DNA of 64,000 bases from Hemicentrotus pulcherrimus. Taxonomy: Eukaryota; Echinodermata; Echinoidea; Camarodonta; Strongylocentrotidae. The position numbers were made by a program, and so were the translations under genes. The DNA lies in the NCBI GenBank assembly GCA_003118195.1, contig BEXV01000901.1:62185-126184 (forward strand). Direction: 5' to 3'. Shown here piece after piece: positions 8,601-50,290 of the stretch. The notes below the pieces were generated by a model. It was not told where the DNA came from, did not search any database, and worked only from the letters and a program-made list of their open reading frames with translations. Position 1 is the first letter of the stretch; every line of letters begins with the position of its first letter.

Positions 8601-11600
8601 TGACAACGAAAACATCAAAGAGCTCATTTTCTTCACAAACATTTGCATCTTTCAGCGGACTGCACTGATCCGGGTACTCCGGTTGATGGAACTCAATCAG
8701 GTTCCTATGGTAACGGAGACACAGTTTCGTTCACATGTGATGATACATTTACTCTGGTAGGAGCAAGTATCATCAGTTGCTTGGGTGGAGACTGGACTGA
8801 TGAAGTACCAGTTTGTTACGGTGAGAATACAATATTTGTTATTTTACTAACTCTGTTAGGGCATGTTCGAGCTATGTTCTCATTTTGTGTCCCATACGTT
8901 ACCAGGTATTGAGTGATTATGATCAGGAAGTGATATCAGGGCCCCGTCTTTCAAAGAGTTGATATCAATCGTAACTTATTTGCGATTGATATCAATCGTA
9001 ACTATGTACATAAGACATAGGAGACTGTAAACTTGTGATTGATTGGAGGACTTACGATTGATTTGGATCGATCGTGACTCTTTGTAAGACGGGGCCCAGA
9101 TGTGCCACTTTACTTTATGTAAGGACTGATCCAAGCTCAGTATGGCTGTGAACCTAATGTGATGATCAGGAATACTAAATTCTTTGATCTGGTCGGCAAC
9201 ATAAGGGACAAAAAAGTTTGGACTTGCGATTGAATCAATGTCTACAGTTCTGCAAGGCCCACATTTAACCCTTACAGACACTGGTATCAAAGGCGTCACC
9301 CTTATCACCGAGAGAGAAAGGGAGAAGCATCATTCATTATAGTGTTATCTCATTAGTTATTAATATCAAATTTCCTGTCTATAGGCACCGTCGATTTAGG
9401 TGCCGAATAATATATTAGTACAACAAATTCACCGTCCACAATTTTACACAATACATTATCGCCAATACATCGCTAGGACCTCTTATGCAAAGATCTGATA
9501 TAGATATTGATAAGAAGCTATATATAAGATTTCTCATCTAAACTATTTTAGGGAAAGTTGTTCAGTGTCTGACAAGCAGCCCTCATAACAAGTTTTATCC
9601 TACCACTTTTCATTGATCCAGCTCAATGTGGTGATCTGGGAACATTGGAGGACGGCACCAAGTCGGGTGGAGTAGAGTACGGGGACACACTCACCTATGT
9701 CTGCAATGAGGGATTCACCCTGGTCGGAGCTTCTGAGCTAACATGTACAAGCAATGGCTGGGACACTGATCCACCCGTCTGTTACCGTGAGTAAATATAC
9801 TAACGTAAATAACAACCATCACAGCATCTCTAATAATAAAGAGGAAATGTCATTGATAATAATAATGATAACAATAATAATAATGATAACATCAAGAGTT
9901 GGATATATACAACACTTCCTTTCAGTAGAGTATTATGTGTCATGTTCTGTGACTTTGTTCTATTTTTTTAGAAAGCTGCACAGATCCTGGCACTCCCTCG
10001 TTTGGCAGTCAGTCAGGAACATACGAAAATGGAGATGTTGTAGAATTCTCCTGTGACAGTGGATATACCCTCATTGGTGCATCACAGATCACTTGTGAAG
10101 ATGGAACATTTTCAGCGGAAGCCCCAACCTGTCAAGGTATGATACGGCATCTAATACGAAGTGATTGTTATCTTAGGAACCTGTGCTGCCATTCTTGATT
10201 GATAGAGTATCGACTTTCTAAATACATGTATCTAGAACATTGTTGTTGTCTCTTGTATTTAAAAAAAACCTACATGACCGCTGTCTTAAATTCCCTCTGA
10301 ATACAAGAAAATGTGATTTAATTTATATTAACTACTTTAAAATCCATATAAACTAGTTTCATCTTGGTCAGTGGGCCATATCTAAGACAAAGACGAATAG
10401 AACAAAAACACATATGTATTAAGCAAAGAAAGGGAGTAATTGTGATGTTTGTCACAAATTAACACAATCAGAAAGACAAGGTAATCATAAAAAATCCACT
10501 AAATTTGGGCAATTTTTCTTTTCCTACCCAATTTGTTTAATATTTTGCTCATTTTGAAGTAATTCAATATTTTGACTCTAATTCCACTAAATGTTATTCA
10601 AGTTTGGAAAATAGCCAAAGTTGGTTGGACACATAATTAACTTCGTACTGCGCAAATTTATATTTTATACTTGATGGAGTTATGTAGCACATAGTAACAC
10701 TTAATGCTACTGCTAATCATTTTATTTACTGACTACCAACTGCAATATTACGACATGAACAATTCATTCACTATTTCACCAGCCGACTGTTCGGACCCAG
10801 GAACCCCAGTAAACGGAGCCCAATCAGGATCATATGGCAACGGTGATACAGTGACATTCACGTGTGATGCCTCATACACATTGGTAGGAGCCAGAATCAT
10901 CACCTGTCTCGGAGGTCCTTGGAGTAACGAAGTTCCAGAATGCATCGGTGTGTAGGCCTACAATTATTTCTGTATTCTAATAAACATAATACTACAAGAT
11001 TTAGATGTTATATCGAAGATTCAAACATAATCACAATATTCCCCGAAATCATGGGTTCAAAAGATATAGCTTTGACATTATCATATATAATCCGGTCACA
11101 AAATTCTCGTAGCAGTGCAGTAACATAATACAAAATATCAGAAAGCTGGTTTCGTAGCAGCTTTTGGGAAGGCGTGTTGACTTGACTGCAATCGTCGCAT
11201 TCATATTTCTATAGGACATCCGTTAGAAACAAGATATTCATTCTTCCGAAAAATGTATTTATCTTATTTCCAATCTCCATCTATTTATATATGATAAAGA
11301 GATCAATTCATGTAGCTGTTGCCAAGAGTACTTCTGCTGACGTACATGTTAACGTCTCTTTACCCCTTACAGCGGCATGTGGTGATCCTGGAACATTGGA
11401 GGACGGCACCAAGTCGGGTGGTGTGGAGTATGGGGACACACTCACCTTTGTCTGCAATGAGGGATTCACCCTGGTTGGAGCTTCTGAGCTAACATGTACA
11501 AGCAATGGCTGGGACACTGAGCCACCCGTCTGTTATAGTAAGTCTGAACATAAATGACAATTTTCTATCAAGGATAAACTATTCAAACTATATTAGGTAC

Positions 11601-14600
11601 ATGTAGATACCAATAACTAGGCGCCGTGTCTGTTACTTTGCTTGATATGTTGTGATACACAGTGTCATATTGTGGGAACAGAAATTGAGAAGGCACTGGC
11701 ATCAACAACTTTTTTATTCAATTTTTTCACTCCAGTTTTCCCTATTTTACCATTCGGCATGTGGCCCCAACCCTCATGCCCTTTCTGTGATAACGGCACT
11801 GTTCAAGAATATGCACTGACCATTATTTAGCACTGCTTCGCGAGAAAAACAGTTTTCCATCATTCTTTCTTAATATTTTTCAAGGTAACTGTGAAGACCC
11901 AGGTACGCCAGCCTTTGGTAGTCAATCTGGAACCTTCGACCACGGCGATGTTTTAACTTTCGAATGTAACCAGGGTTACACACTGATTGGTGCATCTCAG
12001 ATCACCTGCGATGATGGAGCTTACAACGCAGACATTCCTGATTGTGAAGGTAAGTAGTTAATCACATACTCCCGTAATATCCTTCCTTCGATCAGTCTGT
12101 ATTTGCCGTAACCGGAACTTTTATGTTTCGGAAAAAAATTAGTTTGAATTAGTTTTACTGATAAAATTATATCCATGTAACAAACCAACATATTAGGCTA
12201 TGTGTGGCAATATTGTAGTACCGGAAAGAGTCAGGTCCGCCTGTAGTATATACTCAACATGAACACGATACAAAATTGTTTGAGTTATACCGCTATTTCA
12301 AAAAAAGTATATATATATATATATATATATCAAGACATTTCTAATAAGACAATGTATGCAATGGATTGACCGATGTATTCCACGAAAGTAATCAAAAAGA
12401 GCACAAACGCGTGTAACGGCGGGCTACATAAGTATGTTGCGAAGTTAAGTGTCTGTTTCATCACACTAAACACATGTCTACAAATGTCATTTCCCTTTTA
12501 TATTACATAATATTAGGTGATGTCACTGTATCAACGGATTCACCGGCTGGCACAACGCAAGGATCAAAACAAACAACTGTTGCTGCAGCTACAACTAAAG
12601 AGGCTTCGGTAACATCTACACCGACTAGCAAAGTGACTAGTGATAAAGGAACCACAGTAGAAGACCGTCCTACAACAACAACAACCGAAGTGACAACTGA
12701 ATTCAGGGAAACAACACTAGAAGTGGATGTCGAAACGACAAGACCCGGGCCCTCAACAAGACCACCTCAGCCAACCACATTAAGTTCTTCCTCATCTAGT
12801 ACAACAACACGTGTCTCCCCAACAACTGCTGCTGGAGCTACCACTACAGATGTTGCAGCTACTACGATACGGGAGAACGAGGAAACGACACCTGTTCTGA
12901 CAACGGCTGATACGGGAACAACTTTAGGAAGTCGCCCTTCAACAACACAACATGGTGTTAAAACAACGGAAGAAAGGGAAACTACACCAATAATCGACGT
13001 TGAAACAACGAGGCCAGAACCTTCCACTAGACCGCATCGACCAACCAGCCCAAGTGTCTCTACCAGACCTCTGCCTGAAAGCACTACGCGCGATTACTTC
13101 TCACAATCCACCACCATCGATATTGTAACATTACCTACTCGGATGATGACTACTGATGAATCATCACCAGAACCTCCAACGAGACCTCGCCCAAGATGCC
13201 CACCAATCATGGCCCCTATGCACGGATCTTACAGACGGTATGATTGGTATCGCCGTGGGGAGAAGGTTGTTTTCTCATGTGATCATAACTACGTCCTCAT
13301 CGGGCCAGAATGGATCATTTGTTTTGATGGAGAATGGAGTGGTCCTGTACCTGAATGTAAAAGTGAGTACATCTTCCCGTATAGTTACATTCAATGGTTT
13401 ATGTTTGCCAAGTGTATATAATGGTAACTAGTAATACTTTATTTCAATGTTTTTAAGCTTCTAAATTCAAAGTACATTGCAAGCCATAATGGAGTCAATT
13501 ATAAGAGCTTATACAGGATATATCGATAAAGATATAGCTTTCAATGTCGTCGTTGCTAGCATTGTCATCATTCATTATATTCCTACGTGATATCATTATC
13601 CATTTTTTAAAATATCCCTTTTTTGTTTCACTTGTCTTTATAAAATAGTAACCTGCGGTCATTATCCTCCTCCTCCAAGGCATGGTTATACCCTTACTCC
13701 CGATAAATACATTCCATCTCGTCCTTCATCATGGACACCTCGACCAGGTTATGGAAGAATGGTGCCGGTCTCACGAGCCTCATTTCCCGACGGTATGAGG
13801 GGAAACGACACTTTAAGTGACTTATTCGATGAGGCCGACGAATTTGATAATGTACAAGATCGTCTTGGAGCATTAAACTTCCCGAACATTGGAATAGGAA
13901 ATCCATTTGCGGGTGATGACGAGGAATCCGTCACAGCCTCTGCAGGCGCAACCGGAGATTCTGGAAATGGGGGATGGGGACTTCCTAGCGGGGGTTGGGG
14001 GATTCCTAGCGGTGGCATCGATTTACCTGATATAGACATACCTTTTATCGGTGGTGGAGGTAACCCTGGAGATATGGTGACGTTTTCTCCTGGATTGACC
14101 CTACCCTCGGTCACCTGGGAAGGTGGTGTTTCTCCTGGTGATTCATCCAACGGGTTTCCGGATTTTGGCAACGTCAATTTACAAGCTGTACAGGTCATCC
14201 AACAAATAATTGACATTACGATGGATATAGACTGGCAGATCATAGATTCTGAATCTTTCGTTATGATGCGTCTTCTACGTGAATTGATCAGAATTGTGAG
14301 CGACGTTATTATGGCAACTAACTGGGAAAATGGTGATCTATCTACCGTCAACTGGGAGGGTATGAACGCATCCGCATTGCCGATGCCGAGTATGCTCCGA
14401 GACGGTCTAACTGTGATCCTATCAACTGATTGGCAGAACTATGATTGGACATCTCTTGATTTCATCCATTTTCCAAGTTTTATGAGGGAAATCATGTATG
14501 TCATAACGGATACTGATTGGTCTACGGTTGTGGATATCTCAGAAGCTATCGCTGCTATTCAACGTCCGGTATTTATGATTGATGATCTACCTGATATTGA

Positions 14601-17600
14601 CCTTTCTCGTATCAATACAACACGCCTTTCAATAAACGTAGATGCTCTACGACTCTTAGGAACAGAGTTTCTCGATAGTGGGAACGTATCGGATGTTAAT
14701 TGGGAAGCCGTGGTTGAAATAATCAATTTGAACCTTCCCGAAGGATTTCCGATGATCCGATGGGAAATCGAAGGAACGTACTTACCTTTCTTGGATTGGA
14801 GTACGATGAACGTAACTGCAATGAATTTGGAAAATATCGAATGGTTCAATATGTCAGCGCTCCCTGAATTTATCAGGGAACTGACACTTTTCTTTCTTTC
14901 AACAGACATGGAAGTTATAAGAGCCGACGATATACTGCATATACTACCCATTCCAGATGGTATTAGAGACATGGTCACATTGGCAATGAATTTCAACTGG
15001 AACATGCTGAACATGACGGGAATGAATAATATGCCAGTACCTAGTACAAGTTCTGATTTGATCGCAATAGTCTCTCGAATTTTGCGTCAGAATCCCATCG
15101 ACTGGAGTCTTCTCCGAAACTACACTGACCTGGACTTGATGAACATGTACAACACGAGTTTGACAGATATGCCAATACCAAATGCACTGCGTCCTTTCCT
15201 TTCCGGCTGGAGTGATTTTAACATGACTGATATTCCTTACGTCGAGTTACTCCGACCTTATCTCGAAAGCTTGATGAATATAGATTGGGAGAGCTTTGAT
15301 GGCAACAGCACAGATTTCAGAAATATGAGTCTACCAGATTCCTTCCGAAACATTCTAGAATTTATAGTTTCAACAGACTGGGAAAACCTTGACGCTACGG
15401 TTCTTGAAAGCATCATGCCAGCATCGGTCCAAAACATTATGTTCATTGCAAGACACCTGGACATGACTTATCTTGAATTGATAGAGTTCTCGTTGCCTAT
15501 ATTACCATTGCCAGAGTATGTAAAGTACTGGATAGAGATGGCAATCAATTTCGACATGCAAGACATTGATGTTAATCAAATGAATATGACCGCTGTTCTT
15601 CCCGACGAATGGAGGGAATACTTAATGATGTTGATGAATATAGACTTGGAAAGCATCCGCTTGATCAATGTTACGGATTTCATCATACCTTCACAAGTTC
15701 GGGAGTTTTTCCTTTTCCTTAATGGTACGGACTGGATCAAGCATAATTCCACAGATATCCTGATGAGTCTACCGCTTCCAGATCAGGTCAAATCGGTATT
15801 GTTCGTCTTGGTTAACTCGGACTGGGACACTGTAGACCAGTCAAATATTGATGTAATCATGAATGAAATTTACTCCGTGTTGATGAATTTGGATCTGGAA
15901 CTTTTGAGAACTTTTGATTTGGATGCAATTGTTAATTTGCATGAAATGCTACAACCGTTTATCCTCATCGACTGGGAAAACTTTGACTGGACTAACGACA
16001 ACATCACAAATCTTCCCATTAATCCTGCTGCCAGCCGATTTCTGATAATGGTGATGAGGACAGATTGGGAGAATATCAACTGGGATCAGATCGACCTGTC
16101 TGCTCTCTCAATCCCAGACAAGGTCAAGAGTTTTATATTTACCATGACAAAAATGCGATGGGATGCAGCCAATTGGACTGAAATGGTGGAAAATTTGCCA
16201 ATTCCTCAGGGTAATAGGGATTTCCTCCTAATGCTGATGGATGCAGAAATCCAGGAATATATCTTTGATTTGTTAAATAAACTTATGATGATGAACTGGG
16301 AGAACTTTGATTGGATAAATTTCATGCCTGACATGGAAATGAAAGGGTTTGACTGGGCGATGATCCTAGATGTTCTAAATCTACCCATTTCAGAGGATTT
16401 TAAGAATGTATTATTGGTGATGTTCACCTCGAGCAGAGAGGACTGGGATCTGTCAAATCTTGATACATCAATGTTTCCCGATCAACTGTCCGAATTTCTT
16501 TACCTCCTTGAAAGTATGGATTGGGAAAACATTGACCTCATGCAAGCAGTAGACCTCACGAACCTGCCCATACCTGATCAGATCAAAGACATGCTCATGA
16601 TGATGGCACAGATTGACTGGGAGAGTTTTGACTGGATGAACATTGACTTTACAGTGATAAGGGAACTCCTGGGAGGATTGATGAACATGGACATGGGAAA
16701 TGTCGAATGGTCTGAGGTCATTGATCTTTCTGGTTTACCAATATCTGATCAAATGCGAATGTATCTGGAGATGCTGATCACATTAGACTGGGAAAACGTT
16801 GAATGGAGTGATGTCATCGACATTTCAGGTCTTCCAGAACCCATCAAAGCACTGGTACTAAGAATGATGAGCATGGACTGGGAAAACATGGATATGACAC
16901 AGCTTTCGATGCCAGATCAGTTAAGGATGTACATCATGATGATAACCCAGTTTGATTGGGCCAATTTTGATTGGACTCAGGTTATCGACCTATCTGGACT
17001 TCCTATCCCAGATCAAATGAAATTGGTCCTTGAAATGCTCATGACTATGGATTGGAATAACATGAGTTGGGAACAAATTGATCTGTCAATGATTCCTATG
17101 TCCGATCAAGTTAGAGAGGTTCTCGAGTTGATGATGCTTGTTGACTGGCAAATTGTTGACTGGGCACAAGTGATTGACCTGTCTGGTCTTCCATTTTCAG
17201 ACAATACTAAGTTGTTCCTCGAAGAGTTAATGAGGATGGACTGGGAAAACCCTGACTGGAGTGAAATGGACTTTTCGAGACTACCGCTGTCTGAAGAGAT
17301 GAGAGATATGCTTCAAATGATGTTGACCGTGGACTGGAATGAGTTTGATTGGACTCAAGTTATTGATCTTTCTGGACTTCCCATCTCTGATCAAATGAAG
17401 CTTGCCATTCACTGGATGATGAATATGGACTGGGCAAGCAATGATTGGATGGGCATGGATAGTATGATGGAGCGTGCCATGGCTTTTTTACATAGATTAG
17501 ACTCAATTGTTTCTGATCTACTTCACCGCATTTTCTATGACATGTACAACAAGATCTTAAAGTTTCTGTTTAGGCTAGACTTACCTTTTCTCCCTGATCT

Positions 17601-20600
17601 ACCACGTCCTCGACCACCTCCAATTTCTGGTGATAGTATTACGTATGTCTGTAAGAGAGGTTTCGAGCTAATTGGATCATCTGTACTAACCTGTACGAAT
17701 GACGGTTCGTGGAGCAGTTTGCCTCCTGATTGTGAGAGTAAGTACTCTTTGAAATAACAAATTTCTTAAATAGTACTGTTTCGTACATGGTATTTATTTG
17801 ACATGATGAACATTTGTATGATCACTTATAATCGAGCGAATTTTTGTAATACTGATTGAAAAAAAAAATTGATGTGCAACCAAAATAATACAGAAATGAA
17901 ATACGTAAAAATCGACCAATTAGATATGCGTGTTTTTTAATGATATATATACAAATTTGCACTATTTAATATTTTCTGTTTTTATGGATTTTATTGTATT
18001 TTTTTTTTCTTTTTTGGTTTGGCTTTAGGACTTTCTAAAATCATTTTCTTTGGCTCTTTCTTTTTAAGGAATAAGGCCAACACAACCCCCTCGTCCTACT
18101 GAACGGCCCAGACCAACTGGAAGGCCTACACCCTCAATACCTTCAAGGACGACTATATTTGAATTTACAACAAATGAAGCAAGCACAACCCCAAATAACA
18201 GAGCAACATCTGAATCCTCAACACCCACAGAACGGCTGCGTCCAACTGAAAGACCAAGGCCTTCAGAAGCTCCGAGATCAACTACTTTCGAATATACAAC
18301 AGAAGCAGAAGAAACAACTCAAAATGACAGACCAACATCTAAATCCTCCCAAACGACTGAAATATCCACTACAGAAAGAGATCAAGGAACTACCATTGAT
18401 GATGAAGTGACTACTCCAAGATCGGATCTACAAACTACGTCAGAGGCAGCAACGAGTATAGTGGTTACAACCGAGGAAGCTTCGTCTGCACCGACAACAC
18501 CTGCAGATCCATGTTCTTCGAATCCTTGTGTTTCAGATGTCAACGCAGATTGCGTCTCATTGGGTGACACATACGAATGCCAGTGCCAGGCAGGATACGC
18601 TAGGGACTCAAACAATACGTGTACATGTAAGTTGGTTAGTTTGCTAGGATACTATGTGTGTTCTTGTCTATAATCAACAAGGGGACTGACAGCTTTAAGT
18701 CCTCTCCGAGGGACTTGATAATGAGGATTAATACCTTACCAAAGGCTCTAGCGCATCAACTATGTTTTGAACCTGGGACTTCCCGGTTACGAGATACTTG
18801 TTCTGCAACTGAGCTAAAGCACCTCCTCATAAAAAGCATAAAATAAAAACCTTCTAGTGTTCAGGAAAATGATTTATCATTTCACCTATTTCACCTGTAA
18901 TGCTCAGAATATTAATCACAACATAGTTGTTACAATATTTATATACACGTTTAATGTAATATATCCTCAACCAGTCAGTATTTTCATTTACTATTTTCAT
19001 TTAGTAATGATGATACCTTTAAATCATAGTGAATATATGATAGACCTATTATTTTATTTTAATCCATCTTGCAGCAACCCAGCAGTTTGCAGCAATGATT
19101 CGAATCACCGAGGTAAATGGAGGAACTGCCTCCTTTACAGAAGACCTGCAGGATAAAACATCACCAGCTTTCCAGACTCTAGCTACTGACATAGAAAACA
19201 CGGTAAGCGTAGAAGAAATTATCCATCAGTGGCTGTCATAAATTTATGTAAACGTTGGTTGAAGTTTGAAAGAGTAGCTTATTCTCTTCAGTTTAGCTAA
19301 AATGTGGACATTTTATAGTACGTGTAAGAAAATGTAGGCATACAAATGATTATCGGCAATTAATAATCAGGAAAAAATGTAATCCGTTAGAGCATTTAAA
19401 GGCCGTCAATACTACTGGGCCAGAAGGGATTAGACCACACAGCGAGGTCACTGACAGGTGGCTATCTCATTAAATCAGCTCTCAACCAACATAAGAAAAA
19501 GAGGATCATGGGGGACCAACAGGCACCGATTGGGGAAGTTTTCTATAATTAGAGGGGCAAGTAGCTACAAGTAGGACAGTGGGCTTTAAGTTTATGATCG
19601 TTTTACTCTTCACTATTTTTTCATCAGTTTACCTTTAAAAAAAATAATAATAATAATAATAATAATACATAACATTTATTAGGCGCTTAATACTGATGTT
19701 TCTAAGCGCACAGTGTTCTGATTAAGAGAAGACTATAACCCGTTGAATTAAATTAGAAGAAAAAGCAAAAATACAAAAGTAACATAGATAAGGTAAGAAA
19801 AACAGTGGCAATCAACTAAATAAAGACAAATATGGTGCGCACCTCCATTGACCGACGCACAACTGCAATTTACAATTTGAAAAGATAGGTTTTGAGTAGA
19901 GATTTGAATTGAGATACAGAGGGGGCGCAGTGAATAAAGGCGGGCAGTTTGTTCCAGAGAGCGGGGGCAATAACTGAAAAGGCGCGGTCACCATACCGGG
20001 TGTTAGTGCGGGGTCCGTTTGCCTGTGGCTGTTTGTGTGTTTTATCAATTGACGCATCTGCCTCTTTTAATCATTTATTATCAAGAGCCAATATTCAAGT
20101 ACAAGTACTTACATGTACAAGTACTTACATGTATAATGATTATCGTATGTCTTCACCTTTTCATAGCTGGACATGATTTACTTGATGAGCTCTCTTGCTG
20201 ATTCGTATCTTGGAGCCACAGTCAACGGTTTCTCGAACGGCTCTATCGTTGTGGATTACACCGTCAAATTCAGGGACGAGGAAACCACCATACCAACGAA
20301 TACGACGACCAACACAACGATGCCGACATCGATTGATTCCACAACCGTTGTCTTAGCGTTCACAGAGTCGTTGAAGATGGCGATGGAAACGGGTACTGTC
20401 AATGTCAGTATCGATGAGTCATCTGTGATGGTTACTGGTGAGTGCAGATTGATGCGGTTCGTTTTGTCAGTCATCAATCCCCATCAGTGTGGAAGGAGTC
20501 GAGACCAGGACTTGATGGGGAGAACGGTTTTTCCAGGTCTAGGTCTTGAAAATTGTGGCCTACCACATTTATGCTTTCTTGAAATTAACATTGTCACTAT

Positions 20601-23600
20601 CGTTAGTAGTCCAAATCAAAAATAATGTGACGACCTGTTATCCTTTATTATAACAAGTCTAGAATTTGCTCACTTGTGCATTATCATACTAGTCCAAATA
20701 CACTGATATTCCTAAGGTAATATTCAATCCTATCTCAGTGGTAAATTTGTTTGTTAAACTGTTCTCAGTGAGAAAGAAAAACAAGTTTTTTTAAAATAAA
20801 TTTTATTAGATCTGGATGAATGTGCCTCACGCGATGACAATGACTGTGATGACGATGCTGTCTGCATTAACACTGAGGGGTCGTTTAACTGCCGTTGTCG
20901 TGAAGGATTCATCGATCTTTCACTAAACATCCGCCAACCCGGAAGAACTTGTTCTCGTAAGTAGCAGTTCATGAGATGCCCATTGAAAATTTTAGTGATT
21001 TTATTTATTATAGATGCCAGGACAATACTATAGTCTTCTCAGTTCTGCTGATGGCTCCTGATTTTTGCAAGGACTGACTTAAATAACCAATGATATCTGT
21101 TATCAACCATCTAGATAAACATTATTTACACGTACTTGGTATATAAACGGATTCGAGATTGTGGTTTGTAGGCTTGAAGATACTATTTTCTTCTCTTTTA
21201 CGTAGTGCCAAGCACGATGCCACCACCTCCGTCTAACCCCTGTACCAGAAACCCATGTGCCTATGCTCGGGCAGAATGCATCGTTGTTGGCAGATTCTTC
21301 AAGTGCGTTTGCCGACCTGGATTTGCTTTCAACCCCGATGGTGTCTGCAAATGTAAGTTTAAATTGATTGCACATAAATATGCGAACATCATTATATAAG
21401 GAAGGTATTACGCAGTCTAAATTATTTGGTGCCACTTATGGATAGACGTCTTTGCATTCGGTCGAAACTTCAATGGACTGCCAAAGCACTGTGTTACAAT
21501 ACATTTCTAAAAGGTGTCGCGTATGCAACAATGGACAGTTCCAAACAAATATCGTCCAATTTGTAAAAGTACACCGTCGTCAAAGTTCATGTATTCGGAA
21601 ACGCTCATCATGGTAATGTTTTCTCTAACTTTTATCGTGTCAGAGTTTAAGAAAATAATACAATTTATATATTTGATAGAAGAATGTTATAGAAAAGCTA
21701 TTGCGCATGTTATCCTCTACATCATACATGTGTTTGTTTTTTTCATAGTAACCTGTGGTCCTTTCCCCTATCCACCACGATATGGATACGCCATCCTGTA
21801 CGACAACCGCCCACCGGGCATGGAGGCACCGACGACTCCAAGTGGAATGAAAGGAAACGAGTCCACACCTGGCTGGGAATGGCCTGTCACGAGAGATCTC
21901 TTCGGAGATGAATTCACTACGGCGTCCAATGACTTGTGGACGGACGAGATCAATTGGTCTGGTAACATCGGTGATGTAGCGTCTCATATTGGAAGTCTGA
22001 ATTTCCCAAACTTTGGAGTTGGAAACCCATTTGAGGAAACAACCGGTTTGGAAGGAGCAACGACAGATTCGGGAAATGGCGGTTTCTTTGGTGGCCTACC
22101 AAATGTCGACTTGCCTAATGTGGACATACCCAACGTCGACATACCCAATATCGGTATACCAGCAGTTAGTATCCCTAACACGGGAGCAACGGAGGTTATG
22201 CAACAAATCTTGGACATTGTGATGGGTATTGATTGGCAGAATACTGATTTCGAAGTACTTCGTAGAATAATCGAGACAGTTCTTGAACTCGTCACTAACA
22301 CAATATCGGGAGACAGTGAACACTCCGTCATAGATTGGATGAATATGAATACAACTGTTTTAACTGGTATGATTCCAACTATTGATAACCGTACGCTAAA
22401 TCTTATTACCGTGGTCGGAAGAGAGATTATAGTCAATATGAACCGGTCTGAGGTGAACTGGGAAGCATCTATAGCTGCATTGAACTCACTTCTTCCTCAA
22501 GGTTTACCCAGAATCCAGTTGTCAACGGATGGGAGTTCCGGTGTCATACTTGACTGGAGTAGCTTTAATATGACATCACTACCTTTGCCAGATAACTTCA
22601 GACAGGCAATCACAATGGTCATGGATTGGCAGAATACCAACTGGAGTCACATCAATGCGATTCCAGAATTCATCAGGGTACTGATCGAACTCTTCCTAAC
22701 AACAGACATGGAAAATATAGGAGCCGACGATATACTGGCTATACTACCCATTCCAGATGGTATTAGAGAGATGATCACAATTGCAATGAATTTTGACTGG
22801 GACAGGCTAAACATGACGGGAATCAATGATACGCCCGTACCTTCCTCAGCAGTTGACTTGATCGCTATAGTCACTCGTATTTTGCGTCAGAATCCCATCA
22901 AATGGAGTCTCCTCCGAAACTACACTGGCCTGGACTTGATGAACATGTATAACATGAGTTTGACAAATATGCCAATACCAAATGCACTACGTCCTTTCCT
23001 TTCTGGCTGGAGTGATTTTAACATGACTGATATTCCTTACGTCGAGTTACTCCGACCTTATCTCGAAAGCTTGATGAATATGGATTGGGAGAACTTTGAG
23101 GGCAACAGCACAGATTTCAGAAATATGAGCCTACCCGATACCTTCAGAAACATTCTAGAATTCCTAATTTCAACAGACTGGGAAAACTTTGACACTACGG
23201 TTCTTGAAAGCATCATGCCAGAATCAGTCCAAAACATTCTGTTCATTGCTCGACACCTGGACATGACTTATCTTGAATTGATAGAGTTCTCGTTGCCTAT
23301 ATTACCATTGCCAGAGTATGTAAAGTCCTGGATAGAGATGGCAATCAATTTTGACATGCAAGACGTCGATTTTAATCAAATGAATATGACCGCTGTTCTT
23401 CCCGACGAATGGAGGGAATACTTAATGATGTTGATGAATATAGAATTGGAAAGCATCCGCTTGAGCAATGTTACGGATTTCTTAATGCCTTCGCAAGTTC
23501 GGGAGTTTCTCCTTGTTCTAAATGGTACAGATTGGTCGGGTATTGATATAGACAGAATACTGTCCCTGATGATGAACATGGGCTGGGAGCTTCCCGATGG

Positions 23601-26600
23601 ATTCGACTTCTTAAAAATATTAAATCAGTCGATACCGCAGAACGTTCAAGAAATGCTACAACCATTTATCCTCATTGACTGGGAAAACTTTTACTGGACA
23701 AACGACAACATCACAAATCTTCCCATTAATCCTGCTGCCAGTCGATTTCTGATAATGGTGATGAGGACAGATTGGGAGAATATTAACTGGGACCAGATTG
23801 ATCTTTCTGCTCTCTCGATCCCAGACGAGGTTAAGAGTGTTATATTTACCATGGCAAATTTGCGGTGGGATGCAGCCAATTGGACTGAAATGGTGGAAAA
23901 TTTGCCAATTCCTCAGGATGATAGGGATTTCCTCCTAATGCTGATGGATGCTGAAATCCAGGAATATATCTTTGATTTGTTAAATCAACTTATAATGATG
24001 GACTGGGAGAACTTTGATTGGATAAATGTCATGCCTGACATGGAAATGAAAGAGTTTGACTGGGCGATGATCCTAGATGTTCTAAATCTACCAATTTCAG
24101 AAGATTTAAAGAATGTTTTATTGGTGATGTTCACTTCGAGCAGAGAGGACTGGGATATGTCAAATCTGGACACTTCAATGTTGCCCGATCAATTGTCCGA
24201 ATTCCTTTACCTCCTTGAAAGTATGGATTGGGAAAACATTGACCTCATGCAAGCAGTAGACCTCACGAACCTGCCCATACCTGATCAGATCAAAGACATG
24301 CTCATGATGATGGCACAGATTGACTGGGAGAGTTTTGACTGGATGAACATTGACTTTACAGTGATTAGGGAGCTCCTGGGAGGATTGATGAACATGAACA
24401 TGGGAAATGTCGAATGGTCTGAGGTCATTGATCTTTCTGGTTTACCAATATCTGATCAAATGCGAATGTATCTGGAGATGTTGATCACATTAGACTGGGA
24501 AAACGTTGAATGGAGTGATGTCATCGACATTTCAGGTCTTCCAGAACCCATCAAAGCACTGGTACTAAGAATGATGAGCATGGACTGGCAAAACATGGAT
24601 ATGGCGGAGCTTCCGATGCCAGATCAGTTAAGGATGTACATCATGATGATAACCCAGTTTGATTGGGCCAATTTTGATTGGACTCAGGTTATCGACCTAT
24701 CTGGACTTCCTATCCCAGATCAAATGAAATTGTTCCTTGAAATGCTCATGACTATGGACTGGAACAACATGAGTTGGGAACAACTTGATCTGTCAATGAT
24801 TCCTATGTCCGATCAAGTTAGAGAGGTTCTTGAGTTGATGATGCTTCTTGACTGGCAATCTTTTGACTGGACACAAGTGATTGACCTGTCTGGTCTTCCA
24901 TTTTCAGACAATACTAAGTTGTTCCTCGAAGAGTTGATGATGATGGACTGGGAAAATCCTGATTGGAGTGAAATGGACTTTTCGAGACTACCGCTGTCTG
25001 AAGAGATGAGGGATATGCTTCAAATGATGTTGACCATGGACTGGAATGAGTTTGATTGGACTCCAGTTATTGATCTTTCTGGACTACCCATCTCTGATCA
25101 AATGAAGCTTGCCATTCACTGGATGATGAGAATGGATTGGGCAAACACTGATTGGATGGACATGTCTGCTTTGCCGATGTCGCAACATGTTATTGATCTC
25201 ATCCATTTCATGAATGGTATTGATTGGGAAAACTTCGACTGGACCACCGTCATTGACCTCTCCGGACTACCTTTACCAAAACCACTCAAACCAATCATGG
25301 ATAAATTGTGGGCGTTTAGTACTGCGGTGGATGCACTTGTACATGAAACATACTGGAAGTTCATCCACTTCCTAGAGTCGCTAGATTTGCCTTTCCTACC
25401 TACATTATCTCGACCAAGACCTCTTGAATTTGTAGGAGACAGTGTGAAGTACATCTGTAAGGATGGCTTTAAACTGATTGGAATGCCGGTCTTGAGGTGT
25501 ACAGCTGATGGGTCCTTCAGTGGCATGCGACCGATGTGTATGAGTAAGTAAATGCAACTTCAAAAGAAATAATATATGATCCCCTAAGAAATTGTTACAG
25601 TTTGCTCGTAGATAATTAAGACAGTCATTTGCAGATTCCATTCAGCTGTCAGACCTTGGGATGTCCTTTCCAATGTTTGATTTGATTTTCTTGTATTAAT
25701 CGATGTCTGTCTGACTTATTTCACATAATTTGCCGGATGGCTTTGTAATATACTAAATTATACCATGCAAGTTTTGCAAGAAACGATAAGTCATACGGAC
25801 TAGAACCTTTTTTTATATAAATTACCATAAAGTGTTTTTCAAAATATACTTGGATATGGATGATATTAAAGTCTTAGGTTTCATATTTTCTTGATTAAAG
25901 ACTTTTATAAAACTCACTTCTTTCCTTATCTCTTTTCCAGGAATAAGGCCAACAGAACCACCTCGTCCAACTGAACGGCCTAGACCAACAATACGGCCTC
26001 GTCCAACTGAAAGGCCTACACCCTCAGAACCTTCAAGGACGACTCTTTTCGAATTTACAACAATGGAAGAAAGCACAACCACAAATAACAGAGCAACATC
26101 TTCACCCTTCCAAACACCTAAAGAATTTACAACAGAAGTAGAACAAACAACTCAAAATGACAGAGCAACGTCTACAAACTCCCAAACACCTGAAGAATCT
26201 ACTACAGAAAGATATCAAGGAACTACCATTGATGATGAAGTTACGACTCCAAGATTGGATCTACAAACTACGTCAGAGGCAGCAACAAGTAAGATGGTTA
26301 CAACCAAGGAAGCTTCACCTGCACCGACAACACCTGCAAATCCATGTTCTTCGAATCCTTGTGTTTCAGATGTCAACGCAGATTGCGTCTCATTGGGTGA
26401 CACATACGAGTGCCAGTGCCAGGCAGGATACACTCGGGATTCAAACGAAACATGTACATGTAAGTAGAGAACTTATTTCCCTTTATGATGCTCAAACTTG
26501 TCCATGCTTAAAATAACTCACAAAAAGAGTGTTAGAATATTGTACGCGTTTGGAGAACACTGTGAAGCTTTTTTTTTCTTCTTAGACGCGATTGCATCGT

Positions 26601-29600
26601 TACCTTTACAATAATCATAGGATTATCGAGGTAGCTTTGACCCAAGCGCTCGATGTACATGAGCTAATGTGATGTTAATTGAAAACATTATTGGCACACT
26701 TTGCATTTCCCTTTTGGACGATGTCACTCTCCCATGTCAGCGCCCACCAATGACGAGTTCTATGTCAGCAAACGACGCACAGTGGGCCAAAGTGCCCCAA
26801 ACTCATTTTTGGTGATTTATTTTTTTTTCAATTTTTGTTCTTGCCCAGTTGAAACGTAATACATTGAGGACTACCTCAGTAAAATATTTATTTCCGGTAA
26901 GCGCAATAAGGGTATAAATTTATTTACAGCAAAATTCTACATATTCACAGTTTTAGTGCAAAAGTGACTTATTCTACAAATCTTTCAATTTAACATGAAG
27001 TTCTCAAGACATTGATATCAAATTACTCTCACATATTCCTGATAGTTCATTTTGTTGCATGACAGGGTTAAAATTAATAGAAACACAATCTTAATGATAA
27101 TAGGCTAATAAGGCACTGAAAAATGGACTAATTATCCATATTTGTTATAATTCCAGAGAAAATGTTTAGATGTCTGCAGAGTACCGCTTAAATTATTAAT
27201 ACCACCATTTTGTCTGATGTCTAAGCTTTACGTTGATACCAAATTTGGCTGCCCGATATTGCCCGTTGTTATGTTAGAGCCGATTTCCCTTGCCACATTG
27301 CCCCGAAAAATGTGTGTTTTGGGGGTCCGCGGCTAGATCATGAAGGATTCGCGTTCATCAATCACAGCGCGTGCATAGGGGCGCGTGACACTTGATCTGA
27401 CACCGCGGACCAAAATAAACACATTTTTCGGGGCAATGTTGCAAGGAAATGACTCTAACATAATAACGGGCACAATCGGGCAGCCAAATCTGGTATCAAC
27501 TTAGAGCTTAGACATCAGAGAAAATGTTGGTAATAACATTTGAGCGAAAATCCCTGGAAATCCAAACATTTCCTCTGGATTTATGACAAATGAATCCCCG
27601 TAAATTAGTTTTGGCGCAGTTTGGTTCCTCCCCCCCCCNTGTGATGTTAATTGAAAACATTATTGGCACACTTTGCATTTCCCTTTTGGACGATGTCACT
27701 CTCCCATGTCAGCGCCCACCAATGACGAGTTCTACGTCAGCAAACGACGCCTCGTCTGCAACGGCCAATACTTTATCTTACATATACTTTTTTCATCAAG
27801 AACGATATCGCAAGACAATTAAATTGATAAAAATGTACCGATTCTTCCAACAAAAACACCTTGCAGCAACCCAGCAGTTTGCAGCAATGATTCGAATCAC
27901 CGAGGTAAATGGAGGAACTGCCTCCTTTACAGAAGACCTACAGGATACAACATCACCAGCTTTCCAGACTCTAGCCGCTGACGTAGAGAATACGGTGAGT
28001 AGGGAATGTCTTCTCTGTAAGTTTCTGTCATTCGTAGAAATTAAAGGTTAACATAATAGCCTACTTTCAAGCCCATGTAGCTTTAGGTCATTTTAAAGTA
28101 TTTTTAGGAAATCCATCAATGATATCGAAACCAAATTAACAGCATAAAAATCTGAAATTCTGTACTGTTTTTTAATTTATTTTTATTATTATTATAATTA
28201 TCATGTTTAAATTGCTTATACGTTTACTGTGTTATATAATAGTAAATGTTTTTCAGACGGATCGTAATCCTTTGCCTCGAGTGGTTTTTTGCCAGTTTAT
28301 TTACAGACACAAGAGTTTGTATTAAAATACAAGCACTTATACTGATTAACGTGTGTCTTCATCTATTGATAGCTGGACATGATTTACCTGATGAGCTCTC
28401 TTGCGAATGTGTACCTTGGAGCCACAGTCAACGGTTTCTCGAATGGCTCTATCGTTGTGGATTACACCGTCAAATTCAGGGACGAGGAAACCACCATCCC
28501 AACGAATACGACTAACAACACAACGATGCCGTCAATGATTGATTCCACAACCGTTGTAGCAGCGTTCACAGAGTCGTTGAAGATAGCGATGGAAACGGGT
28601 ACTGTCAATGTCAGTATCGAAGAGTCATCTGTGATGGTTACTGGTGAGTGCAGATTGATGCGGTTTGTATGATCAGTCATCAATCCCCATCAGTGTAGAA
28701 GGAGTCGAGACCAGGATTTCAAGAGGAGACCGGTTTTTCCAGGTCTAGGTCTTGAAAATTGAGGACTACCACATTTATGCTATCTTAAGATTAACATTGT
28801 CTCTATCGAAAGTGGTTTCCAACAAAACAATGGGGACATATTACAAGTTTAGAATGAAAGGACGGTATTAAACTTAACTTTCAACATATTTCAGTCACTC
28901 ATGCATTTTCATTTATGTCCACCTGGTAGAACAAGTACATTTTGACATACTGATGTTCGTAAAATAATTCTCAATCCTATTTGAATATAAAATTAAGGGA
29001 TTTCAAACTGTTTTCACCAAGAAAGATTATTGTATTCATTAGATCTGGATGAATGTAACTCCCGAGATGACAATAACTGTGATGACAATGCTGATTGCAT
29101 AAATACTGAAGGATCGTTCACATGTCGCTGTCGTGAAGGTTTCATCGATATTTCACTTAACAACCGTGATCAACCAGGCAGAAGATGTTCTCGTAAGTAT
29201 TCATTTTGTAAGATGGCGGACAATATTACATATTGTCGTGATTCAATGATGCAACAACAAAAAATATTGTTGTTAATACCATGTCTATTAATGAATTGAA
29301 TAAAGGAGCTCTGTCCGACATAGCTGTTCCGGTGACAATTGCTGCAGGATTTATTTCATGAAATANNNNNNNNNNNNNNNNNNNNNNNNNNNNNNNNNNN
29401 NNNNNNNNNNNNNNNNNNNNNNNNNNNNNNNNNNNNNNNNNNNNNNNNNNNNNNNNNNNNNNNNNNNNNNNNNNNNNNNNNNNNNNNNNNNNNNNNNNNN
29501 GCTGATTGCATAAATACTGAAGGATCGTTCACATGTCGCTGTCGTGAAGGTTTCATCGATATTTCACTTAACAACCGTGATCAACCAGGCAGAAGATGTT

Positions 29601-32600
29601 CTCGTAAGTATTCATTTTGTAAGATGGCGGATAATATTACATATTGTCGTGATTCAATGATGCAACAACAAAAAATATTGTTGTTAATACCATGTCTATT
29701 AATGAATTGAATAAAGGTGCTCTGTCCGACATAGCTGTTCCGGTGACAATTGCTGCAGGATTTATTTCATGAAATAAAGGGTTAGGGTACTACACTGTTG
29801 GTCATTGTGGTGGAATATTTATTTTTACCCCAGCTTAAGGGAGGGATTAAAAAAAAAACTGTTTATTTGTAATAGATCTTGATAATGGCATACATTCCCA
29901 GATTTTATTGAATATTAATTTGCGAGTGTTTGTTTTGCGTGACTGCTTAATCATATGTGTGCTACTATGCTAATCAGCTAAGGGGTCTTACGTCCTTAAG
30001 TCATAATTGACAGTAATGAGGATTAATGCCTCACAAAAGGGCACTAATATGTAGCTGATCGACACAATTTTCATACTGGGGCCTCACAGTAACGAGGCCA
30101 TTGCTTAGCCCCTGAATCATGACTGTACACAGTGTTTGCTAGGGCACGCGGCCCCTTCCACAAATCCCCCAAAACGAAGAAAATGCAATAAATTGTCAAA
30201 AAAATCATTGCATTTTCCCCCGGCCCCCAACAGGAAAAAATCCTCTGTGTGGCCATGCCTTGAACCATAAAGCATGGCCCTATAGAGGAATTTTTCCTGT
30301 TAGGGGCCGGGGGAAAACGCAATTAATTTTTGACAATTTATTGCATTTTCTTCGTTTTGGGGGATTTGTGGAAGGGGCCGCGTACCCTAGCAGACACTGC
30401 TTACGGTCATGATTCAGGGGCTAAGCAATGGCCTCGTTACTGTTAGGCCCAGGATAAAAATCGTGTCGATTAGCTATATTAGTGCCCTTTTATGAGGCAT
30501 TAATCCTCATTACTGTCAATTATGACTTAAGGACGTAGGTTCCCTATCTGATTAGCATAGTAGCACACATATGATTTAGCAGTCACGCAAAACAAACACT
30601 CGCAAATTAATATTCAATAAAATCTGAGAATTTATGCCATTATCTAGATCTATTAGAAATAAATAATTTTTTTTTAATCCTTCCCTAAACTGGGGTAAAA
30701 ATAAATATTCCACCATTATGACCAACAGTGTATTAGGTTTTGTACTAGACTAAGGGTTTGGTACTAAGGTATAGACTCTGGTCTAGAGTTGAAGTTATGA
30801 CTTCGGTTATTGAATGAAATTGACCGCGGAGCAATTGTCGCCTGAACAAGTGTCGTACACCCGACTAACAAGGTGAAAATTGGAAGGGATGTGGAAACGA
30901 AAAGGAAGACCTTGCTTTCTTCCAACACACATGAACAGAATCATCAACTATTGCTATAAAAATGACTTATTCTGTATGTTGCAGACACATTGAGATGGTA
31001 GGCTTTATAATACTATCATCTTCTTCATATACGCAGTACCATTCACGACACCGACGATGCCTCCACCTCCCCCAACCCCCTGTTCCAGCAACCCNATTAT
31101 ATAAGGAAGGTATTACGCAGTCTAAATTATTTGGTGCCACTTATGGATAGACGTCTTTGCATTCGGTCGAAACTTCAATGGACTGCCAAAGCACTGTGTT
31201 ACAATACATTTCTAAAAGGTGTCGCGTATGCAACAATGGACAGTTCCAAACAAATATCGTCCAATTTGTAAAAGTACACCGTCGTCAAAGTTCATGTATT
31301 CGGAAACGCTCATCATGGTAATGTTTTCTCTAACTTTTATCGTGTCAGAGTTTAAGAAAATAATACAATTTATATATTTGATAGAAGAATGTTATAGAAA
31401 AGCTATTGCGCATGTTATCCTCTACATCATACATGTGTTTGTTTTGTTCATAGTAACCTGTGGTCCTTTCCCCTATCCACCACGATATGGATACGCCATC
31501 CTGTACGACAACCGCCCACCGGGCATGGAGGCACCGACGACTCCAAGTGGAATGAAAGGAAACGAGTCCACACCTGGCTGGGAATGGCCTGTCACGAGAG
31601 ATCTCTTCGGAGATGAATTCACTACGGCGTCCAATGACTTGTGGACGGACGAGATCAATTGGTCTGGTAACATCGGTGATGTAGCGTCTCACATTGGAAG
31701 TCTGAATTTCCCAAACTTTGGAGTTGGAAACCCATTTGAGGAAACAACCGGTTTGGAAGGAGCAACGACAGATTCGGGAAATGGCGGTTTCTTTGGTGGC
31801 CTACCAAATGTCGACTTGCCTAATGTGGACATACCCAACGTCGACATACCCAATATCGGTATACCAGCAGTTAGTATCCCTAACACGGGAGCAACGGAGG
31901 TTATGCAACAAATCTTGGACATTGTGATGGGTATTGATTGGCAGAATACTGATTTCGAAGTACTTCGTAGAATAATCGAGACAGTTCTTGAACTCGTCAC
32001 TAACACAATCTCGGGAGACAGTGAACACTCCGTCATAGATTGGATGAATATGAATACAACGATTTTAACTGGTATGATTCCAACTATTGATAACCGTACG
32101 CTAAATCTTATTACCGTGGTCGGAAGAGAGATTATAATCAATATGAACCGTTCTGATGTGAACTGGGAAGCATCTATGGCTGCATTGAACTCACTTTTCC
32201 CTCAAGGTTTACCCAGAATCCAGTTGTCAACGGTTGGGAGTTCCGATTTCATACTTAACTGGAATAGCTTTAATTTGACATCACTACCTTTGCCAGATAA
32301 CTTCAGACAGGCAATCACAATGGTCATGGATTGGCAGAATACCAACTGGAGTGACATCAATGCGATTCCAGAATTCTTCAGGGAACTGATCGAACTCTTC
32401 CTAACAACAGACATGGAAAATATAGGAGCCGACGATCTCATGCCTATACTACCAATTCCAGATGGTATTAGAGACATGATCACAATTGCAATGAATTTTG
32501 ACTGGGACAGGCTGAACATGACGGGAATCAATGATACGCCCGTACCTTCCTCAGCAGTTGACTTGATCGCTATAGTCACTCGTATTTTGCGTCAGAATCC

Positions 32601-35600
32601 CATCGACTGGAGTCTCTTCCGAAACTACACTGGCTTGGACTTGATGAACTTGTATAACATGAGTTTGACAGATATGCCAATACCAAATGCACTGCGTCCT
32701 TTCCTTTCTGGCTGGAGTGATTTTAACATGACTGATATTCCTTACGTCGAGTTACTACGACCTTATCTCGAAAGCTTGATGAATATGGATTGGGAGAACT
32801 TTGAGGGCAACAGCACAGATTTCAGAAATATGAGCCTACCCGATTCCTTACGAAACATTCTAGAATTTATAATTTCAACAGACTGGGAAAACTCTGACAT
32901 TATGGCTCTTGAAAATATTATGACAGCATCAGTCCAAAACATTCTGTTCATTGCAAGACACCTGGACATGACTAATCTTGAATTGATAGAGTTCATGTTG
33001 CCTATATTACCATTGCCAGAGTATGTAAAGTCCTGGATAGAGATGGCAATCAATTTCGACATGCAAGACATCGATTTTAATCAAATGAATATGACCGCTG
33101 TTCTTCCCGACGAATGGAGGGAATACTTAATGATGTTGATGAATATAGACTTGGAAAGCATCCGCTTGAGCAATGTTACGGATTTCTTAATGCCTTCGCA
33201 AGTTCGGGAGTTTCTCCTTGTTCTAAATGGTACAGATTGGTCGGGTATTGATATAGACAGCATACTGTCACTGATGATGAACATGGGCTGGGAGCTTCCC
33301 GATGGATTCGACTTCTTAAAAATATTAAATCAGTCGATACCGCAGAACGTTCAAGAAATGCTACAACCATTTATCCTCATTGACTGGGAAAACTTTTACT
33401 GGACAAACGACAACATCACAAATCTTCCCATTAATCCTGCTGCCAGTCGATTTCTGATAATGGTGATGAGGACAGATTGGGAGAATATTAACTGGGACCA
33501 GATTGATCTTTCTGCTCTCTCGATCCCAGACGAGGTTAAGAGTGTTATATTTACCATGGCAAATTTGCGGTGGGATGCAGCCAATTGGACTGAAATGGTG
33601 GAAAATTTGCCAATTCCTCAGGATGATAGGGATTTCCTCCTAATGCTGATGGATGCTGAAATCCAGGAATATATCTTTGATTTGTTAAATCAACTTATAA
33701 TGATGGACTGGGAGAACTTTGATTGGATAAATGTCATGCCTGACATGGAAATGAAAGAGTTTGACTGGGCGATGATCCTAGATGTTCTAAATCTACCAAT
33801 TTCAGAAGATTTAAAGAATGTTTTATTGGTGATGTTCACTTCGAGCAGAGAGGACTGGGATATGTCAAATCTGGACACTTCAATGTTGCCCGATCAATTG
33901 TCCGAATTCCTTTACCTCCTTGAAAGTATGGATTGGGAAAACATTGACCTCATGCAAGCAGTAGACCTCACGAACCTGCCCATACCTGATCAGATCAAAG
34001 ACATGCTCATGATGATGGCACAGATTGACTGGGAGAGTTTTGACTGGATGAACATGGACTTTACACTGATTAGGGAGCTCCTGGGAGGATTGATGAACAT
34101 GGACATGGGAAATGTCGAATGGTCTGAGGTCATTGATCTTTCTGGTTTACCAATATCTGATCAAATGCGAATGTATCTGGAGATGCTGATCACATTAGAC
34201 TGGGAAAACGTTGAATGGAGTGATGTCATCGACATTTCAGGTCTTCCAGAACCCATCAAAGCACTGGTACTAAGAATGATGAGCATGGACTGGGAAAACA
34301 TGGATATGACACAGCTTTCGATGCCAGATCAGTTAAGGATGTACATCATGATGATAACCCAGTTTGATTGGGCCAATTTTGATTGGACTCAGGTTATCGA
34401 CCTATCTGGACTTCCTATCCCAGATCAAATGAAATTGGTCCTTGAAATGCTCATGACTATGGATTGGAATAACATGAGTTGGGAACAAATTGATCTGTCA
34501 ATGATTCCTATGTCCGATCAAGTTAGAGAGGTTCTCGAGTTGATGATGCTTGTTGACTGGCAAATTGTTGACTGGGCACAAGTGATTGACCTGTCTGGTC
34601 TTCCATTTTCGGACCAAACTAAGTTGTTCCTCGAAGAGTTGATGAGGATGGACTGGGAAAACACTGACTGGAGTGAAATGGACTTCTCCAGACTACCGCT
34701 GTCTGAAGAGATGAGAGATATGCTTCGGATGATGTTGACCATGGACTGGAATGAGTTTGATTGGACCCAAGTTATTGATCTTTCTGGACTGCCCATCTCT
34801 GATCAAATGAAGCTTGCCATTCACTGGATGATGAGAATGGATTGGGCAAGCAATGATTGGATGGACATGTCCGATTTGCCGATACCGCAGCAGGTTATTG
34901 ATTTCATCCATTTCATAAGTGGTCTTGATTGGGAAAACTTCGACTGGACCACCGTCATTGACCTCTCCGGACTGCCTTTACCAGAACCACTCAAACCAAT
35001 CATGAATAAATTATGGGCGTTTACTACTTCGGTGGATTCACTGGTACATGAAACATACTGGAAGTTCATCCACTTCCTAGAGTCGCTAGATTTGCCTTTC
35101 CTTCCCGAATTGCCTCGACCAAGACCTCTTGCATTTATAGGAGACAGTGTGACGTACATCTGTAAGGACGGTTTTAAACTGGTTGGAATGCCGGTCTTGA
35201 GGTGTACAGCTGATGGGTCCTTCAGTGGCATGCGACCGATGTGTATGAGTAAGTAAATGCAAATTTAAAAGAAATTAATTTATAATTCCCCGGTTAAGAG
35301 TTATAGTTCACTCATATTCATTGTATAGTTTGTCATTTGCACATTTTCTTTAGATCGTGGGACTTATTTCCTGATACTCGATTCGATTTTGTGATATTTA
35401 ACGATTCCTTTCTAAAATCTTTTGCATAATTTGCCGGATGACCTTGAGTTACACTAATTAAACAAAAGTTGGAACATTCGTCATACAGCTTTATGTTCGT
35501 TTTAATTAATAGAGAATGCATTTGTTACTACGAATAGTCTGTATCCAAATGCAGTAAGTGTATATATTAGACTTTGGTGATATATTTATATCAAGTAAAA

Positions 35601-49700: not shown

Positions 49701-50086
49701 GGAATCTAGATAGCACAAGTACGTTTCTCCCGTCATTTTTCCACAAGCTTTGTCCCCCTTCCCCATTTGTCTCTTTTAATCTCTTTTTCATTCATCTTGT
49801 GTACTTTATTTACAGTTCTCTTTTGATACTTGCTTTCATTATTCATTAATCACTTTGTTCTACTTTTTGTATATTTTTTGATTCTCATTTTCCCATTTCA
49901 TATATTTTCCATTAATTCAAATTGCAAGGATGTTTCGTTTTAAACGCTTAGGTAATTTTTCTTCATTCTTCCCCATTTTTGTTTGCTCCTGCCTTCCATT
50001 CTCATTATCCACACTCCACTCATTTTTCCCCATTTTCTCTATCTCTCCTTTCCTCTCTTGCCAACAAATAGTTGGTATGTACCCTA

Positions 50087-50096
50087 TCATTATTAA

Positions 50097-50136
<40 letters not shown>

Positions 50137-50290
50137 CGATCATAACTTCTCTCACCCAGGCTATCACCTCCATCATATATTCCCTCCATCTCCCTCCTTT
50201 CTTGTTCTCTCTCACTCTGTCACACATCCCCTCTCTCTCTCCTCTCTATCTCCCTCTCCTACCTCTATTATATATCCTCTCGCTTCCTTC
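50087..50290. repeat. (CT)n microsatellite and pyrimidine-rich tract
   Basis: A CT dinucleotide run at 50101-50132 followed by CTCTC/TCCCTC-rich sequence between the two convergent genes. Confidence 0.9.

Follow-up and report, generated by a model that had tools for sequence, protein, structure and literature searches.

Array Exons at the Locus

The window analyzed here is a stretch of 64,000 nucleotides from the sea urchin Hemicentrotus pulcherrimus (contig BEXV01000901.1, positions 62,185–126,184 of the forward strand), and all positions below are those of the window. Its + strand bears three long exons, each encoding a tandem array of about 30 short repeat units within what appears to be a single Sushi (CCP) domain, and these exons stand among others for Sushi, EGF-like, SEA, and Pro/Thr/Ser-rich (PTS) segments of a candidate membrane-anchored glycoprotein. 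The list of open reading frames contains three long frames here (13591–17757, 21511–25551, and 31216–35256), in which an acceptor (AG/TAACC) and a donor (A/GTAAGT), inspected in all three cases, set the exon limits. Array exon 1 (13649–17737) measures 4,089 bp, and array exons 2 (21749–25543) and 3 (31454–35248) measure 3,795 bp each; an earlier, preliminary description of this DNA had given 3.8–4.1 kb for the three, and its outer ends agree with ours. All three are of phase 1-1 and comprise 1,264–1,362 codons without a stop. Exons 1 and 2 share one layout, namely a presumed Sushi Cys1, a linker, the array of about 30 units, a C-terminal linker, and Sushi Cys2–Cys4.

The array sequence is clearly real and maintained by selection. 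Within the exon translations, the Cys-free array part spans 1,057–1,125 residues, in which Met accounts for 9.3–9.4%, Trp for 4.4–4.6%, and Asp for 9.7–10.5%; the high Met, Trp, and Asp and the lack of Cys had been recognized beforehand. The arrays have an isoelectric point of 4.05 and contain 18, 19, and 19 N-glycosylation sequons in arrays 1, 2, and 3, respectively, at which the protein may be glycosylated.

The Repeat Unit

In arrays 1, 2, and 3, a self-trained profile scores 30, 31, and 31 units, respectively, higher than 3 bits, in line with the roughly 30 units expected from the preliminary description. A second profile was built from 35 units of P0005 and P0006, two relatives from the protein database (see section Relatives and Database Searches), with the units located via the self-trained profile. 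With this relative-based profile, each array has 25 units of at least 5 bits and 20 units of at least 10 bits, and the totals are 319.9, 325.2, and 296.3 bits for arrays 1–3; when array 1 was shuffled 50 times, there was never more than one unit of at least 5 bits, no unit got to 10 bits, and the best total was 8.4 bits. The top two autocorrelation lags, 63 and 32 residues, are common to all three arrays. The unit is 31 or 32 residues long, and its spacing is regular mainly toward the C-terminal part of the array and variable in the N-terminal part.

The unit consensus is approximately L-P-[IML]-[PS]-D-x-x-[RK]-x-x-[LI]-x-M-[ML]-M-x-M-D-W-E-N-x-[DN]-W. The repeat pattern proposed earlier stands in outline, except that the segment after the first Asp reads D-x2-[KR] and not D-x3-[KR]. 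Among 56 non-redundant units from the window and relatives, Asp18 is present in 85% and Trp19 in 87%, whereas other positions, such as Met13 (41%) and Met17 (35%), have a mere plurality. Asp18, Trp19, and Leu1 are the most conserved positions between the window and the relatives, and positions 7, 10, 11, 14, and 17 are hydrophobic. Between the window and P0005 or P0006, units at corresponding places have an identity of 0.47–0.51, compared with 0.28–0.33 for units within one array, which indicates that the array was assembled before these sequences parted and that each unit has since kept its own identity. Recent tandem slippage was rejected as an origin, because no tandem repeat of about 93–96 bp is reported in the arrays and units within an array differ more than those between relatives. 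The best further match to the unit profile in the six frames of the window has an E-value of 0.7.

Selection and Exchange

The DNA of array exons 2 and 3 shows 95.5% identity across 4.4 kb. Three arrays are indeed present, as described previously, but because of this identity they count as two clearly separate arrays, not as three independent ones. When compared in blocks of 60 codons, exon 1 shows 78–100% identity to exons 2 and 3 over most of the array core and just 48–59% at both exon ends and in one internal block. Exact tracts extend over 533 bp between exons 1 and 3, despite ends that are about 50% identical, and over 785 bp between exons 2 and 3, which points to conversion-like or unequal exchange. 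On sequence comparison, arrays 2 and 3 are best regarded as a recent duplicate, and array 1 as having exchanged sequence with both.

The array exons are under purifying selection. The Nei–Gojobori ratio of nonsynonymous to synonymous substitution rates (dN/dS) is 0.35 (95% interval, 0.27–0.45), 0.36 (0.27–0.47), and 0.46 (0.33–0.68) for the three exon pairs, where the first two values cover alignment columns 400–1330 only because synonymous sites are saturated on either side; over all columns, the ratios are 0.33, 0.32, and 0.46. The highest single blocks of 200 columns give 0.49 for exons 1 and 2 and 0.77 for exons 2 and 3. A ratio near 1, which the preliminary description had named, together with a lack of transcript or peptide support, as evidence against its proposal, was thus looked for and not observed.

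Relatives and Database Searches

Each of the protein-database searches scored only the 8,000 candidates (in one case 7,998) that have most words in common with its query. Among the candidates scored, four relatives carry the array, namely P0004 (68% identity over 100% of the query), P0005 (37% over 96%), P0006 (33% over 47%), and P0007 (37% over 42%). A search of the organism's own genome with P0001, in which 34 of 37 candidates were scored, gave 12 matches, all on contig C900 inside the window, two of them being ordinary Sushi exons; no array copy was found elsewhere in that genome among these candidates, and the relatives are therefore probably from other species.

No Pfam match has a significant stretch within the array in the window proteins or the relatives, NCBIfam gave no match for the four proteins tried, and a PDB search with a 26-row profile gave no match at E ≤ 10. 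Membership in a known repeat family was rejected at the sequence level on these searches, and the earlier statement that no known family fits is borne out to that extent. The array appears to be without a credible family match, and "unrecognized" here means absent from Pfam, NCBIfam, and PDB. Two Pfam hits were discarded: SOCS_box in P0005 adds up to 24.1 bits against a cut-off of 23.5, has no significant stretch, and is judged spurious, and RelB in P0004 reaches 20.1 bits, under its cut-off of 22.4. With one protein as query, viral contigs yielded no match, and genome contigs yielded four pattern matches, none of which is a relative; viral and prokaryotic origins were rejected accordingly. 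The literature search found general papers on mucins, CCP domains, echinoderms, and SEA domains, and none that covers all the features sought.

Putative Sushi Domain Halves Flanking the Arrays

Each array exon has exactly four Cys, one located a few codons past the exon start, before the array, and three after it. The sole above-cut-off Pfam match in P0001–P0003 corresponds to the latter half of a Sushi domain, behind the array (PF00084; cut-off, 20.7 bits), and the alignments begin at profile position 17–22 and run to 56 of 56. The Cys2–Cys4 half lies at 17626–17733 behind array 1 (37.2 bits; profile positions 22–56), at 25435–25539 behind array 2 (30.0 bits), and at 35140–35244 behind array 3 (33.4 bits), all on the + strand. 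Cys2 and Cys3 are spaced by 14 residues, as in the ten neighboring Sushi domains. The relatives have the same arrangement as the window, in that a Cys1 motif occurs at the start of P0006 (TCGPYPHPNRYGYA) and P0007 (TCGPPPHPSPNGYA), and the C-terminal end of P0005 is a Sushi Cys2–Cys4 half. When the Cys1 part of P0007 was joined to the Cys2–Cys4 part of P0005, PF00084 aligned over positions 1–56 of 56.

With one Cys before it and three behind it, in an exon of phase 1-1, each array appears to have been inserted, as a stretch of more than 1,200 residues, into a single Sushi domain. The preliminary description had overlooked this context. Each array sits inside one Sushi exon, with exons for SEA, EGF-like, PTS, and further Sushi segments around it, and so resembles an inserted segment more than a free-standing module.

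Predicted Structure of the Array

Two AlphaFold2 models, each covering only part of an exon, were considered. Model 1 (647 residues; 7-row alignment) has a mean predicted local distance difference test score (pLDDT) of 38.8, and model 2 (four units; an alignment of 26 of 30 fragments, with units from different places as rows) has a mean pLDDT of 53.1. Helices of 11–12 residues account for 16 of the 23 helices in model 1 and for four of the five listed in model 2, where there is one per unit. Foldseek returned no match for model 2, which is weak evidence given the low confidence of that model. The short helices expected from the preliminary description are predicted with low confidence, but the solenoid or superhelix that it proposed is supported by neither model.

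The Gene Surrounding the Arrays

The surrounding domains were located with profiles built from the window's own domains, which were run along the + strand of the window and 30 kb of upstream sequence. All features below are on this strand. Nine ordinary Sushi domains, each in one open frame, occupy 6144–12045 (own-domain profile, with PF00084 on the first only, at 41.1 bits). They are followed by an open frame (12432–13421) with a Thr/Ser-rich, mucin-like PTS stretch and a tenth Sushi domain (13197–13358; PF00084, 42.0 bits). All ten complete Sushi domains are located at 6144–13358, and the own-profile scan found none in the 30 kb upstream. The DNA of the ordinary Sushi exons at 9626–9792 and 11377–11543 is 93% identical, a recent exon duplication.

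Each array exon is followed by a module of PTS, EGF-like, and SEA segments. PTS stretches (in the regions from 12432, 18068, 25895, 35681, and 37759) were called by inspection as Thr/Ser/Pro-rich, and the EGF-like domains are preceded by such stretches. In module 1, a PTS stretch and an EGF-like domain (18068–18640; the domain itself at 18512–18622) precede a SEA domain encoded over two exons, with the motif GSIVV (19080–20437; own profile and Pfam), and two further EGF-like domains (20821–21348; own profiles only). Module 2 consists of a PTS stretch with an EGF-like domain (25895–26467), a SEA domain with GSIVV (27872–28650, end approximate), and an EGF-like domain (29054–29188), of which a second, gapped copy (29498–29599) adjoins an assembly gap. 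Module 3 contains a PTS stretch with an EGF-like domain (35681–36020) and a SEA domain with GSIIV (36267–36820, end approximate). A fourth module, without an array, has a long PTS stretch with an EGF-like domain (37759–39390) and a SEA domain with GSIVV (39637–40360, end approximate), and a fifth SEA-like domain with GSIVV is located at 42174–43270 (end approximate). Further downstream is a transmembrane-like segment of 21 residues with a mean hydropathy of 3.0 (46534–46596), followed by a basic, charged, presumed cytoplasmic tail.

Four of the five joined SEA domains exceed the Pfam cut-off of 26.4 bits (57.5, 56.3, 40.2, and 58.3 bits), the fifth scoring 22.0 bits, and all five contain GSI[VI]V. 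The order of modules is nine Sushi domains, PTS, and Sushi; three repeats of array-bearing Sushi, PTS, EGF, SEA, and EGF; two SEA modules without an array; EGF; the hydrophobic segment; and the tail. From this order and the common strand, all the exons, including that for the transmembrane-like segment, probably belong to one transcript.

Several other features of the DNA lie between and beyond these exons. N gaps are present at about 29.36–29.50 kb and at 31.1 kb. A direct duplicate of 276 bp (29090–29365 and 29501–29776; 99.3% identity) flanks an N gap and is perhaps an assembly artefact doubling part of an EGF-like exon. An inverted repeat of about 950 bp at 29788–30735 matches its reverse complement with 90% identity and is perhaps a fold-back transposable element, and a second, palindrome-like element at 27140–27591 matches its reverse complement with 78% identity. 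The longest PTS stretch has an internal duplication (38216–38565 and 38759–39069; 76%) typical of mucin repeats. At 49000–64000, where GC content is low and simple repeats occur, inspection of the open reading frames by eye revealed no convincing coding exon; no family search was made there.

Interpretation and Alternative Explanations

In the simplest reading, each array would be one giant coding segment inserted into a single Sushi domain between its Cys1 and Cys2, at a site near the loop known for tolerating insertions in other CCP domains. The Cys1 half is assigned by motif, phase, and relatives, and, as the profile test for this half is negative on the window copies, the insertion model draws its support chiefly from the number of cysteines, the motif, the exon phase, and conservation. 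The CCP domain would then serve as the scaffold where a long, acidic chain without Cys departs and comes back, its roughly 30 short amphipathic helices being linked by Asp–Trp loops. Both Sushi halves would fold as one domain, with predicted disulfides Cys1–Cys3 and Cys2–Cys4 spanning the insertion. With three such modules as parts of one very large membrane-anchored SEA/EGF/PTS glycoprotein, the product would be a tall cell-surface coat, most likely working like a SEA-type membrane mucin. The SEA domains may cut themselves between G and S of GSI[VI]V and so free the outer part under force, and the arrays may be stiff or semi-stiff, N-glycosylated spacers, or else rods that bind ligands or one another. 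For the picture of giant Sushi-borne arrays in a membrane-anchored, self-cleaving, mucin-like coat protein, our confidence is evenly balanced, and it is lower for the exact role of the array.

Several observations weigh against this picture. Cys3 and Cys4 are spaced by 13 residues in the array exons versus 12 in the ten neighboring Sushi domains. When the Cys1 and Cys2–Cys4 parts of the window copies were joined and scored with the gene's own Sushi profile, the joins did no better than the C-terminal part alone and did not exceed joins with a shuffled N-terminal part (109, 185, and 188 of 300 shuffles reached the real score), and the two window joins tried with Pfam aligned at profile positions 16–56 and 22–56 only. 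The join of P0007 and P0005 gains only 1.3 bits over its C-terminal part, and the N-terminal part of P0007 alone has no match. Both EGF-like domains checked with Pfam, those of module 1 and the fourth module, are under the EGF cut-off of 21.5 bits (19.6 and 20.0 bits). Splice-site inspection covered the three array exons and the first SEA/EGF region only, with the remaining chaining following order and strand, and the confidence of both AlphaFold2 models is low.

As to the fold, we propose tentatively, with more doubt than conviction, that the array represents a new extracellular class of Cys-free helical repeat, made of a short amphipathic helix and a D-W-x-N-x-[DN]-W loop, in which more than 1,200 residues in one CCP loop would form a giant superhelical rod present in three copies on a self-cleaving membrane mucin. 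Somewhat less probable is a largely disordered or flexible amphipathic brush, for example one that self-associates or binds lipid. Low pLDDT in both models, the acidic, Met-rich composition without Cys, and the variable unit spacing in the N-terminal part all fit such a brush, but individual positions of the unit (Asp18, Trp19, Leu1, and the hydrophobic positions) are conserved among relatives, which suggests packing, and high Trp and Leu contents are unusual for disordered proteins. It is unlikely that the array belongs, in diverged form, to an already known class of helical solenoids or leucine-rich repeats overlooked by the profile searches. The period of 31–32 residues, the single amphipathic helix per unit, the predicted 11–12-residue helices, and a spacing loosely resembling L-x-x-L-x-x-N would suit such an origin, which is opposed by the negative results in Pfam, NCBIfam, and PDB described above and, weakly, by the Foldseek result for the low-confidence model.

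Two further explanations were considered. If the product were a gamete or immune recognition protein, the arrays could be variable ligand-binding parts that evolve by concerted exchange, in keeping with the exact tracts, with a homogenized array core as against a difference of roughly one half at both exon ends, and with the single block of exons 2 and 3 at a dN/dS of 0.77; since the overall dN/dS is far under 1, we regard this as quite improbable. That the arrays are an assembly or annotation artefact, either because one exon is represented by two haplotype copies, arrays 2 and 3, or because the arrays are not exonic, is very improbable indeed. The near identity of exons 2 and 3 and the N gaps at about 29.36–29.50 and 31.1 kb could be so explained, but the PTS, SEA, and EGF-like exons behind exon 3 differ from those behind exon 2, array 1 is clearly distinct, the relatives have the same array, and open frames, splice sites, and purifying selection all speak for coding exons.

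Comparison with Known Systems

Like alpha-solenoid and leucine-rich repeat proteins, the array has tandem units of 31–32 residues with a short amphipathic helix, which is predicted with low confidence. It differs from them in its D-W-x-N-x-[DN]-W signature, in the absence of a sequence link in the searches above, and in a context that is probably extracellular.

Additional sequence within a CCP domain has precedents in the Heligmosomoides proteins TGM, HpARI, and HpBARI. Domain 3 of TGM (TGM-D3) is described as a CCP domain with 23 ordered inserted residues in its hypervariable loop, which contributes to receptor binding, and the CCP domains of HpARI and HpBARI as having "large insertions" (PMC9163516). 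The putative insertion in the window differs from these in its length of more than 1,200 residues and its roughly 30 repeats. If the reading as a new class of repeat within a CCP loop is correct, the arrays would be an extreme case of the capacity of that loop, and their units a repeat class without a relative in the libraries searched.

In its overall domain content, the gene can be compared with the SEA-type transmembrane mucins MUC13, MUC3/12/17, and MUC16. Muc13 has PTS, EGF, and SEA modules and a transmembrane segment, and MUC16 has multiple SEA domains (PMC1552070); the window gene resembles the former in its PTS, EGF-like, and SEA segments and transmembrane-like segment, and the latter in its several SEA domains. 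The motif GSI[VI]V is close to the SEA self-cleavage motifs GSVVV and GSIVA (PMC6954182), and cleavage in the present protein is predicted from the motif. The likeness is one of domain content, and the window gene differs from these mucins in its ten ordinary and three array-bearing Sushi domains and in its repeated EGF–SEA–EGF modules. If this reading is correct, membrane mucins of this lineage could gain height and stiffness from folded repeats besides their sugar-coated PTS stretches.

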